From assembly GCA_018819285.1 (NCBI GenBank), contig JAHJQM010000025.1, forward strand, positions 1 through 41,032: DNA of 41,032 bases, read 5' to 3'. Position numbers and translations under genes: made by a program. Below, piece after piece: positions 5,109 to 33,973 of this stretch; the stretch's first letter is position 1, and each line of letters begins with the position of its first letter. This DNA comes from Candidatus Omnitrophota bacterium (lineage in GTDB: Bacteria > Omnitrophota > Gorgyraeia > Gorgyraeales > Gorgyraeaceae). A model generated the notes under the pieces. It was not told the DNA's origin, did not search any database, and worked only from the letters and a program-made list of their open reading frames with translations.

Positions 5109-5193
5109 CGAATTCCTTAGCTAATTTCGCCTTGCTGTTTTGCTTCGCAAAGCTAAACAGCAGGGCGAAATTCAAAGGTGACAATACATCTTA
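5109..5193 (+). repeat. Family B hairpin repeat, copy B1 (lpxC-lpxA junction, antisense to genes)
   Basis: gaattccttagctaattt-[stem]-aaattcaaaggtgacaatacatctta. Confidence 0.88.
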
Positions 5194-6504
5194 CGCGTCT
5201 ACAAGAGCAAACATCAGATCCGCTTCAGCTACGACCGCACCATCCACAAGCGCCCTTGTGTGTACCTGGCCTGTCCTTGATTTAAGTTTCATGACCTCTA
5301 CTTCTAAGCGCAGTTGATCGCCAGGAATAACTGTTTTTCTGAACTTTACATTATCAAGGCTCATGAAATATGCATACTTGCCCATATTCTCTTTTTTATT
5401 CAGCAGTAATACTCCTGCCACCTGCGCCATTGCCTCAACAATTAATACGCCTGGCATAACAGGCTTGCCTGGAAAATGCCCTGTAAAAAACTGCTCATTC
5501 ATTGTAACATTTTTTATACCTATAGCTTTTTTGTCCACCTCGATCTTTATGATCCTGTCCACCAATAGAAACGGATACCTGTGCGGCAGTATTTTCTGTA
5601 TATCAATGGCATCCAGTGCCCTGCCGCTTGTTTCAACATACACAGCTTTGATGCCGCCGGAATAAATCCTTTCTCTTTGATTATTTATTTTCTCAACCAG
5701 CTGCACGTTCAGAGGATGACCGCTGCGCATCGCAATAATATGGCCTCTGATGTTGTACCCCAGGAGGTATAAATCCCCTAAAAGATCCAGTATCTTATGC
5801 CTCGCGAATTCGTCTTCAAATCTGAGTTTATTATCTATGACCCCGCCTTCTCCTACCACTACAGTATTGTCGTAATTAGCGCCTTTCCCAAGGCCTTTTT
5901 TCCTGAGCTCGTTTACTTCTTTTTCCAGGCAAAAAGTCCTGGCAGTGGAGATTTCTTTTGCAAATGTATTTTCATCTACAGTAAATGATATATACTGCGC
6001 CTTTAAAAGAGGATGTTCATAATTCAACGTGTAAGACACCCTAAAATTATCGTCAGGTAAAACCATTATCATGGCCCCATCCTGTTCAGCCCACAGGGGC
6101 GCTCTTATCTGGTAAATCTTTTTAGGTAGCCCCTGGTCTTCGATACCCACCTTTCTCAAGATTTCCATGAAGCCTGTTGCGCTTCCATCAAGGCCCGGGA
6201 GCTCAGGCCCGTCCGCTTCTATGATTATATTATCTATGCCGAGCGCCCACAATGCGGCCATTAAATGCTCTATTGTGTGGATTTCAACCCCATCGATTCC
6301 GATGGAAGTGCGCCTAGGGCTTTTTTCCTGGCAGATAATGCTACTGATATCGGCCTTGACCATAGGAGAATCTTTTATGTCAATCCTTATGAAATTTATG
6401 CCCGTATTAGTCGGGGCAGGCTTGAATTTAAGGTTAACGTTCACCCCTGTATGCAGGCCTACTCCTTTTAATTCAACCGATTTTTTTATTGTTCTCTGCT
6501 GCAT
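5191..6504 (-). CDS. lpxC/fabZ: Bifunctional UDP-3-O-acyl-GlcNAc deacetylase / beta-hydroxyacyl-ACP dehydratase (LpxC-FabZ fusion)
   Basis: N-terminal LpxC ([44 protein letters not shown]) fused to FabZ ([43 protein letters not shown]). Confidence 0.96.
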
Positions 6505-27711: not shown

Positions 27712-28239
27712 TTATTTTTTTACACCTGCCGATGGCCGCGCCATGAAATGTATCATTATGGCCCTACCTTCCATCATCGGGCCTTTTTCAACCTCTCCTA
27801 CTTCGTTCAGGTCCGCTATCATTCTATTCATGACCTTTTTGCCTATATCTAAATGGCTCATCTCCCTGCCTCTGAAGATCATAGTGAGCTTTGCCTTGTC
27901 TCCCCTTGCAAGAAACCGTTTGAGATGATGAAGTTTTACCTGATAGTCATGCTCTTCTATATTCGGTTTTATCTTTATTTCTTTCAAGTGGATAGTTTTC
28001 TGGTGTTTGCGCGCCTCTTTTTCTTTTTTCTCCTGTTCATATTTATATTTAGAGTAATCCATTATCCTGCAGACAGGAGGAGATGTCTGGCCAGCAACTT
28101 CAACCAGGTCAAGCCCGGATTCTTCCGCCTTTTGCAACGCATCCTGGGTATTTATAACACCAATTTGTTCACCCTCAGGGCCTATGAGCCTTACTTCTTT
28201 CACTCGTATCCTTTGATTAATCCTTAAATCTTTTGAAAT
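27712..28239 (-). CDS. infC: Translation initiation factor IF-3 (probable AUU start)
   Basis: ISKDLRINQRIRVKEVRLIGPEGEQIGVINTQDAL...; AAAGGAGGTGGTTTTTATTTCA shows SD followed by ATT. The track GTG at 28248 lies inside the SD. Confidence 0.93.
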   Translation of the reverse strand: MSKDLRINQRIRVKEVRLIGPEGEQIGVINTQDALQKAEESGLDLVEVAGQTSPPVCRIMDYSKYKYEQEKKEKEARKHQKTIHLKEIKIKPNIEEHDYQVKLHHLKRFLARGDKAKLTMIFRGREMSHLDIGKKVMNRMIADLNEVGEVEKGPMMEGRAIMIHFMARPSAGVKK

Positions 28240-30899: not shown

Positions 30900-31541
30900 T
30901 TATTTATTCTTTAAATACCACATTTCCTCTATCTTGTCAAGCAAAACATGGCTGATAAAAGTCTTGTTTTTAGCTTTTAAAGACATAATATTTTTAAATC
31001 TGTCAATTATAACAACATCTAACTTATTATTATAAAAGGGGTTGTGGTGTTTTGTTAAAATATTTGCTACTATAAGGTCAAGATTTTTATGCTTTAATTT
31101 TAAATATGCATTTTTTACCAAATCTTCTGTTTCTAAACTAAATCCTACGAATAAGTTACGTTTATGAAATTTGCTTAAGTTTCGCAATATATCTTTATTC
31201 GGCACTAGCTCTATTGTTAAATTTTTACTTCTTTTTATTTTTCTATTAAAAAGGCACTTTGGCCTAAAATCGCTTACAGCAGCGCACATAATCAAACAAT
31301 CTGCGCGGCGCATCTTTTTCTTGAGTTCTTCTAGTAATTCATCTGCTGTTCTTATAAAAACAACCTTGTCCGTTTTGGGCGGGATAAGATTTGTAGGGCC
31401 GCTTATAAGAGTAACTTTATGTTTTCTCTTAAGCGCTTCTTCAGCTATTTTATAGCCCATATAACCAGTAGACCTGTTTGAAATAAATCTAACAGGATCT
31501 ATAGGTTCCTGGGTTGGGCCTGCAGTAACTATGATTCTAAT
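30900..31541 (-). CDS. coaB: Phosphopantothenate-cysteine ligase (CoaB domain as separate gene), probable AUU start
   Basis: Extending the track ORF upstream in frame gives I-RIIVTAGPTQEPIDPVRFISNRSTGYMGYKIAEEALKR, the CoaB N-terminus. No ATG/GTG/TTG exists between the PEPCK stop and this motif. Confidence 0.87.
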   Translation of the reverse strand: MRIIVTAGPTQEPIDPVRFISNRSTGYMGYKIAEEALKRKHKVTLISGPTNLIPPKTDKVVFIRTADELLEELKKKMRRADCLIMCAAVSDFRPKCLFNRKIKRSKNLTIELVPNKDILRNLSKFHKRNLFVGFSLETEDLVKNAYLKLKHKNLDLIVANILTKHHNPFYNNKLDVVIIDRFKNIMSLKAKNKTFISHVLLDKIEEMWYLKNK

Positions 31542-31556
31542 AAACCCTTCTCCTTG

Positions 31557-33425
31557 TCAAAACACATCCGGGACAGGATAGTCGCCATTGTCTTTTCTAC
31601 AATCTTCAAGCCGCTGTCTCTGGTCTTCAAGGGTCTTCATTAAGATATGCGGGGCGTCAAATACTTTTGTGTGATAGATTTTTTTAATCCTGTCTATTTT
31701 AGCTATGCATTCAGGTATACGTAATTTAAACTGCTCATTATAATCTTCTCTTGAGTACTCCTTACCAAGAACATCCTTAAAGAGAAGCTTTAGGTCATCA
31801 TATATGGGCATGTAACCTATAGGCGTTTTTATGCCGCCTGCTTCTCCATGCACACGCAGCTCCATCCATTTTAACCAGACGTGTTTGTCCTTAACGCCGT
31901 TGAGATATTTACCGTCTTTCCCCCGCAGAAAATAATTAACATGGAATATGAGCGGTGGATTTTTAACGCCTTGCACTATATCTAAGTTGTTCTGTATATA
32001 CCTTCCGATCGGTATGGAAAGAAAATCCAGGTTCGCCATGAGATTAAATTTTCTGACTCCCTCTTCGCCAAGCGTAGCTGCTGTTGTCTCTGATTCTATC
32101 ATGGCTGCCTGGCCAAGTATGCCATGAGCCCAGTCAAACGATTGTACAACAGGCACGCTCGTATCCGAATCCCTGCCTCCATAAATAATCCCGCCTATTT
32201 CAACCCCTTTAGGGTTTTCGAGATTCTCGTCGCAGTTCTTCAAGTCTTTCAATCTTATTGTATACCGGGCGTTTTTATGCGCGTAAAGCACTTCGTTTCC
32301 ATCTAGGCCCTTTTTGCCAGGCGTCCATTCTCCCGCAAAATTCACGCCTTTTTTTGGTTCAGGTCTACCATCGCCAAGCCATCTCGGATTATTATTCTCA
32401 TCTACAAGCACGTTTGAAAAGATGACCTCTCCTGGCGCTGTAAGAGCTTCAAATATAGCTGGGTCGCTTGTTTCGCTCACATCCTGGATAATGCCGAATA
32501 TCCCTTTTTCCACATTGACAGTTACTATCTGGCCATCTAAATTTTTTAAATAGGCAATATCATCGCCTATAATCTTTTCACCTTCCAACATCGCAGTCGC
32601 AGTCTTGCCGCAGGCAGACGGAAAAGATCCTGTAAAATATGTAATCCGTTTTTTCCGACGGCCATAGACACCCATGATAAACATATGTTCTGTAAGCCAT
32701 CCTTCTTCGGATGCGCGTTTAATAGCCAGCCTCATGGCAAGTTTTTTAAGGCCAATTGCGTTTCCCGCGTATTGAGTGTTGAAACTAAACACTATTTCAT
32801 CCTGAAGATCTATATATACGTGCCTCTTTTCAAAATTTTTGCTCACGCCTTTATCCAGTTCACCTGCTGAATGCACAAAACGGAAGAAATTGCCAGAGCC
32901 TTTGAGGTTCAGAAACTGTTCATAGCCGCTCCTATAAAGTATATCCTCTGAATGAGCTACATAGCTTGAATCTGTTATCTGAACAGCCGATATAGAAAAT
33001 TTTGAGCCAGTAGGGCCCAGGCAATAGAAAGAGATGTACATCTCTTTGCCTTCCATGGCATTCTCAAATAATTTATGTATCTCCTCGATACCTTTTTCCC
33101 TGTCAACTGACATTATGTCAGAACCAAGGACTTCATCAGGCCTTAAAAGATACCTGGTAGAGCCCTTATCCCTGCCCTGGTCAAAATAACCGTCGAAATG
33201 CGCTACATGGCCTTTTGTAACAAGAGGTTTCTCTTCTTTGTTTTCTAATGTTTTTTTGCGTATATATTCAGCATCCTCCCTGGAATCCGTACGTACAAAT
33301 ATCGAATCAGGGTTAAACAGTTTCGCGTATTTGGCTGCAAACTTTATGAGCTTATCGTTTGCGAGTTTCTCAAGTTTTTTATAATTCTCTTGCCCGCATT
33401 TTTCTTTTAGTAAATCTATGCTCAT
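31557..33425 (-). CDS. pckG: Phosphoenolpyruvate carboxykinase (GTP)
   Basis: 622 aa; FPSACGKTATAML; NFAGEWTPGKKG; GRDSDTSVPVVQSFDWAHGILGQAAMIESETTAA. Confidence 0.96.
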   Translation of the reverse strand: MSIDLLKEKCGQENYKKLEKLANDKLIKFAAKYAKLFNPDSIFVRTDSREDAEYIRKKTLENKEEKPLVTKGHVAHFDGYFDQGRDKGSTRYLLRPDEVLGSDIMSVDREKGIEEIHKLFENAMEGKEMYISFYCLGPTGSKFSISAVQITDSSYVAHSEDILYRSGYEQFLNLKGSGNFFRFVHSAGELDKGVSKNFEKRHVYIDLQDEIVFSFNTQYAGNAIGLKKLAMRLAIKRASEEGWLTEHMFIMGVYGRRKKRITYFTGSFPSACGKTATAMLEGEKIIGDDIAYLKNLDGQIVTVNVEKGIFGIIQDVSETSDPAIFEALTAPGEVIFSNVLVDENNNPRWLGDGRPEPKKGVNFAGEWTPGKKGLDGNEVLYAHKNARYTIRLKDLKNCDENLENPKGVEIGGIIYGGRDSDTSVPVVQSFDWAHGILGQAAMIESETTAATLGEEGVRKFNLMANLDFLSIPIGRYIQNNLDIVQGVKNPPLIFHVNYFLRGKDGKYLNGVKDKHVWLKWMELRVHGEAGGIKTPIGYMPIYDDLKLLFKDVLGKEYSREDYNEQFKLRIPECIAKIDRIKKIYHTKVFDAPHILMKTLEDQRQRLEDCRKDNGDYPVPDVF

Positions 33426-33973
33426 CTATGTGACCCCTTCAACCGTTTAATTTCTTTGATAATAATTTCTACATCCTGTATATGGCCCAGGCCTTCTGTA
33501 CCGCAGGCAAGGCTGCCTTTTATTGGGCCAGTGAAATAAAATCCGAGTTTTTTCAATTTGCTGATATTTTCCTGCACGATTTTATTCTTGTACATATTTT
33601 CGTTCATAGCTGGCGCGAATAATACAGGCGCATTTGTCGCGCACACCAGACATGTAAGCATATCGTCGCATATGCCATTTGCTATTTTCCCGATAATATT
33701 CGCTGTGGCAGGTATAATAGCGACACAATCCGCTTTGTGAGCAAGCGAAACATGGCCGGAACCCCACTCATCTGGCACGTTGAACATATCATGCGTTATA
33801 ACCTTGCTGCCAGAAATTGCCTGAAATAAAATAGGCTTTATAAATTCTTTCGCCTCTTTTGTCAGGACTACTGTTACTTGGTTACCTTGCTTACGAAGCC
33901 TGCTTATAACATCTAGGGCCTTATAACAGGCAACGCTCGCAGTAACACCGATTATAACATTTTTATTCTTCAT
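33422..33973 (-). CDS. coaC: Phosphopantothenoylcysteine decarboxylase (CoaC flavoprotein domain as separate gene)
   Basis: NVIIGVTASVACYKALDVISRLRKQGNQVTVVLTKEA; APAMNENMYKN. Confidence 0.95.
   Translation of the reverse strand: MKNKNVIIGVTASVACYKALDVISRLRKQGNQVTVVLTKEAKEFIKPILFQAISGSKVITHDMFNVPDEWGSGHVSLAHKADCVAIIPATANIIGKIANGICDDMLTCLVCATNAPVLFAPAMNENMYKNKIVQENISKLKKLGFYFTGPIKGSLACGTEGLGHIQDVEIIIKEIKRLKGSHR

Follow-up and report, generated by a model that had tools for sequence, protein, structure and literature searches.

Genetic organization of the coaB locus

The window analyzed here is the whole 41,032-nucleotide stretch of contig JAHJQM010000025.1 (positions 1 to 41,032) from Candidatus Omnitrophota bacterium, assembly GCA_018819285.1. 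The features that concern us all lie on the minus strand:

33422 to 33973, minus strand: coaC, phosphopantothenoylcysteine decarboxylase, with an ATG start (Pfam Flavoprotein 1.3e-33, TIGR00521 6.1e-59)
31557 to 33425, minus strand: GTP-type PEP carboxykinase (PEPCK), between coaC and coaB, with its TGA 15 nt before the AUU (NCBIfam PRK04210 2e-186)
31550 to 31555, minus strand: Shine-Dalgarno sequence AAGGAG of coaB (-8.5 kcal/mol when paired with the standard 16S tail)
31539 to 31541, minus strand: predicted AUU start codon of coaB (ATT or ATC here in 15 of the 16 family coaB genes)
30900 to 31541, minus strand: coaB, phosphopantothenate-cysteine ligase, 213 codons plus stop (Pfam DFP, structure alignment, single copy)
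27712 to 28239, minus strand: infC, encoding initiation factor IF3, with an AUU start at 28237-28239 and the extended Shine-Dalgarno sequence AAAGGAGGTGG (TIGR00168 1.1e-66)

The coaC gene overlaps PEPCK by 4 nt (ATGA). The identity of CoaB is clear from a profile search (Pfam DFP 1.3e-60), from the TAGPT, AAVxDF and KIK motifs of its DFP domain and from its alignment with the crystal structures 5int, 1u7u and 4qji, which extends from residue 2 onward. A search of this genome found a single coaB, and this copy is thus presumably functional. Elsewhere in the window, the translation of an ORF at 5191-6504 resembles, as judged by eye, an LpxC-FabZ fusion.

The start of coaB in this genome

An earlier note on this DNA had proposed that coaB begins with AUU, and the stretch that it quoted is present exactly as given: the PEPCK stop TGA (31559-31557, minus strand) is followed by CAAGGAGAAGGGTTT and then by ATT (31541-31539, minus strand), which opens the coaB frame IRIIVTAGPTQEPIDPVRFISNRSTGYMG, with AAGGAG standing 8 nt ahead of the ATT. 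As was also reported, the N-terminal motif of CoaB precedes any ATG, GTG or TTG, none of which occurs between the PEPCK TGA and Met28. The first in-frame ATG (31460-31458) is codon 28, and starting there would drop 27 residues, of which 17 are invariant in the 16 family members with coaB. The ATT falls at the position where CoaB homologues begin.

The 16S tail was looked for and not found in this assembly, and the Shine-Dalgarno energies given here assume the standard tail. On that assumption the coaB duplex ranks ninth among the 33 sites of the window for which an energy was calculated. Local folding near the start does not stand out (-14.1 kcal/mol, rank 5 of 30 in stability).

Conservation of the ATT codon and of the codons that follow it

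The family sample comprised 19 genomes, with coaB in 16 of them, including the present one (G000). In an alignment of the family coaB sequences, the codon at the position of interest is ATT in 14 of the 16, ATC in G007 and TTT in G013, the last having an ATG three codons upstream of the aligned position. The AUU is kept across at least six genera, and a chance occurrence of ATT is rejected because the codon stands at the same position in so many family members. An assembly error that removed an ATG, which the earlier note had named as a possible refutation, is excluded as well, since independent genomes share the ATT. The other refutation that it named, a canonical start upstream in relatives, is absent in nine of the 16: no ATG, GTG or TTG lies upstream of Met28, as far back as the preceding in-frame stop, in G000, G005, G006, G007, G008, G012, G014, G015 and G018. 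This in-frame stop lies six codons before the ATT in G000, G005 and G006, and three codons before it in G012 and G015. In five relatives an in-frame GTG or ATG occurs within coaC at codon -22, and in G017 an in-frame TTG at codon -6; coaB may have other starts in these six. We rejected the codon -22 GTG/ATG as a start for the family: it belongs to the conserved L-x-C-G region of coaC, an in-frame stop comes after it in G007, and the remaining genomes lack it.

The codons after the ATT are under strong protein-level selection. For codons 2-27, comparison with G006, G005 and G008 gave a pN of 0 and pS values of 0.29, 0.24 and 0.63, respectively, and comparison with other genera a pN of 0.06-0.13 and a pS of 0.67-0.77. 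The eight codons ahead of the ATT (-8 to -1) show no conservation. On this substitution pattern, the codons directly after the AUU are judged to be translated. Family CoaB sequences prefer ATA for isoleucine (188 ATA, 82 ATT, 62 ATC), yet 14 of the 15 isoleucine codons at position 1 are ATT. Part of this bias is not related to the start, because the overlapping coaC frame also constrains these bases in ten genomes. Setting conservation against the position of the first canonical start in every frame of the region gave a noisy result, antisense frames also looking conserved. Among sense genes, only coaB is conserved from about 30 codons ahead of its first canonical start with no upstream gene overlapping it to account for this; gmk has a similar pattern of early conservation, but overlaps yicC.

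With the standard 16S tail assumed, the Shine-Dalgarno duplex amounts to -7 to -12 kcal/mol in 13 of the 15 genomes with ATT or ATC. It is weak in G009 (-4.7) and G012 (-5.8), which both count against the AUU reading, and also in the ATG-start relative G013 (-4.1).

Other families of the class served as a contrast group, and all 79 of their genomes (69 plus ten) start coaB with a canonical codon, in most cases no more than 15 codons from the position of the ATT. Because of these canonical starts, the AUU can be regarded as a trait of this Omnitrophota family. Eighty coaB loci from other named genomes were also considered: 63 encode a fused coaBC, in 12 a canonical codon lies no more than 25 codons away, and five were unreadable. 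One of the 80, L056, is itself a member of the AUU family.

A positive control is available in the same genome in infC, 3.3 kb from coaB. Among the infC genes of 16 family members the start is ATT in 15 and ATC in one, and the Shine-Dalgarno sequence ahead of it is very strong; the family thus evidently uses such starts. The GTG chosen by the ORF caller for infC sits inside the infC Shine-Dalgarno sequence. Taken with the ATT aligned across the family and the selection on codons 2-27, the AUU start put forward in the earlier note is strongly supported, and we consider it highly probable that coaB translation begins at this codon.

History of the junction

In ten relatives coaB overlaps the 3' end of coaC by 10-13 nt, with 7 or 10 nt from the first base of the coaB start codon to the beginning of the coaC stop. 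Of the 15 other family members that carry coaB, 11 lack PEPCK at the coaB junction. PEPCK precedes coaB in G000, G005, G006, G013 and G015, with coaC on its far side in the first four; the G015 contig ends there. These PEPCK lineages fall in at least two places of the CoaB tree, and PEPCK is located elsewhere in G012, G014 and G018. PEPCK directly before coaB was thus seen in three sister species as well as in two further genera (window 31557-33973; L165-L168), close relatives having PEPCK elsewhere or a distant homologue only, which we read as repeated insertion at one junction. In G017, another gene lies between coaC and coaB (L169:7700-8780). It ends in ATTAA, a 5-nt stop/start overlap with coaB that would be impossible with an ATG, GTG or TTG start.

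The ancestral layout was most likely a coaC/coaB overlap with ATT and without PEPCK. The AUU would have arisen in a family ancestor where coaB overlapped the coaC end by 10-13 nt, and would have been retained as PEPCK or a different gene entered the junction in several lineages. ATT is kept in three of the four lineages freed from the coaC overlap (G000/G005/G006, G015 and G017); in the fourth, G013, a nearby ATG replaced it.

The direct coupling of coaB to the PEPCK stop, also proposed earlier, holds only as far as the short gap of 15 nt in this genome. The gap is 79 nt in G005, 22 nt in G006 and 31 nt in G015, PEPCK is missing from the junction in eleven relatives, and the coaB ATT has its own Shine-Dalgarno sequence. 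The conserved overlap or very short gap of a translationally coupled pair is not found for PEPCK and coaB. In native E. coli gene pairs, re-initiation drops by 40-80% at +14 nt and is nearly lost at +38 (PMC10666635).

Other possible routes to CoaB

Could CoaB be made without initiation at the AUU? A stop codon followed by C, as is the PEPCK TGA here, is a leaky context, and this TGA is in frame with coaB, so that read-through would yield a PEPCK-CoaB fusion requiring no separate start. However, in G005 and G006 PEPCK ends in another frame, with a separate in-frame TAA six codons before the ATT, and the relatives that lack PEPCK at the junction could not use this route; we regard it as very improbable. 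A fusion with CoaC through a programmed -1 frameshift in the overlap might be suggested by the ten overlapping relatives and by the fused coaBC of most bacteria (63 of 75 readable loci). Such a shift is impossible in the present genome, where PEPCK parts coaC and coaB by 1.9 kb; inspection of the alignment by eye revealed no shared slippery heptamer in the overlap, and in G012 the coaB frame is closed by a TAG three codons ahead of the ATT, which leaves frameshifting extremely improbable. The conserved ATT and the stops upstream of it rule out an assembly error, and they rule out stop read-through and frameshifting as the general route to CoaB. A start at Met28, and hence a shorter true CoaB, is in line with the ORF caller and with the presence of this ATG in 16 of 16 family members. 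Against it, the selected codons 2-27 hold the TAGPT and SNRSTG motifs of solved CoaB structures, and the Shine-Dalgarno sequence of Met28 is weak (-4.3); we see hardly any chance that this is the start.

A different matter is whether the AUU, although real, is a historical relic without regulatory role, weak initiation being enough for a low-demand enzyme and the coaC overlap having frozen the codon. The codon lies inside coaC in the ten overlapping genomes, and G013, out of the overlap, switched to ATG; yet the three other lineages out of the overlap kept ATT. We put the chances of this explanation at about even.

Possible mechanism and significance

If coaB does start at its AUU, CoaB would come from its own initiation event at this codon, positioned by the upstream Shine-Dalgarno sequence and read by the ordinary initiator tRNA. 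From the established biochemistry of AUU, such initiation is likely to be weak and IF3-sensitive at coaB. Weak initiation would keep CoaB scarce relative to CoaC, and sensitivity to IF3, itself the product of an AUU-start gene, could link CoaB to this factor. In E. coli, non-canonical starts are repressed when IF3 is elevated, and so is re-initiation at sites lacking a Shine-Dalgarno sequence (PMC2268962). Control of coaB by IF3 is plausible by analogy with AUU biochemistry and with the infC, pcnB, sigR, cvfC1 and ccpN precedents. A wider proposal, that the family-wide AUU ties CoA output to translation capacity via free IF3, through the same start-codon check as in infC, appears to us rather unlikely.

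To our knowledge, very few genes besides infC keep an AUU start across genera. The characterised genes with a conserved AUU encode mostly scarce or regulatory proteins. Our literature search turned up no paper describing a coaB with a non-canonical start. When start-codon switches were reconstructed, only one of 61,358 ancestral AUG starts had changed to AUU (PMC5622118). A single-copy essential gene with AUU offers a natural case for asking why no one-base change to AUG has taken place. In practice, gene callers limited to ATG, GTG and TTG will cut 27 conserved residues from the CoaB proteins of this family, and the case suggests looking for such starts in other uncultured genomes.

Comparison with known non-AUG starts

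As judged from sequence conservation, coaB very likely carries a conserved non-AUG start of a known sort, here on an essential metabolic enzyme. The closest parallel is infC (AUU, AUC or AUA, autoregulated; PMC5472188, PMC13009471), which in the same way has an AUU behind a Shine-Dalgarno sequence, kept across genera. It differs in feeding back on its own product, whereas coaB encodes a metabolic enzyme and has the weaker Shine-Dalgarno sequence here. The E. coli pcnB gene (Binns and Masters 2002, as cited in PMC13009471) also has an AUU on an enzyme gene. It is another gene in another phylum and, according to that citation, the AUU was experimentally shown to limit its output. In Streptomyces, sigR resembles coaB as a non-canonical start outside infC that gene callers misannotate, but its codon is GTC and its repression by IF3 has been demonstrated (PMC5472188). 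For cvfC1 (AUU) and ccpN (AUA) of Staphylococcus aureus, reporter output in poor medium was about 10% of that with AUG (PMC13009471). Like coaB they have conserved non-canonical starts, with strong Shine-Dalgarno sequences in their case (PMC13009471); they encode a small protein and a repressor and were shown by ribosome profiling, whereas coaB encodes an essential enzyme whose start is predicted from sequence.
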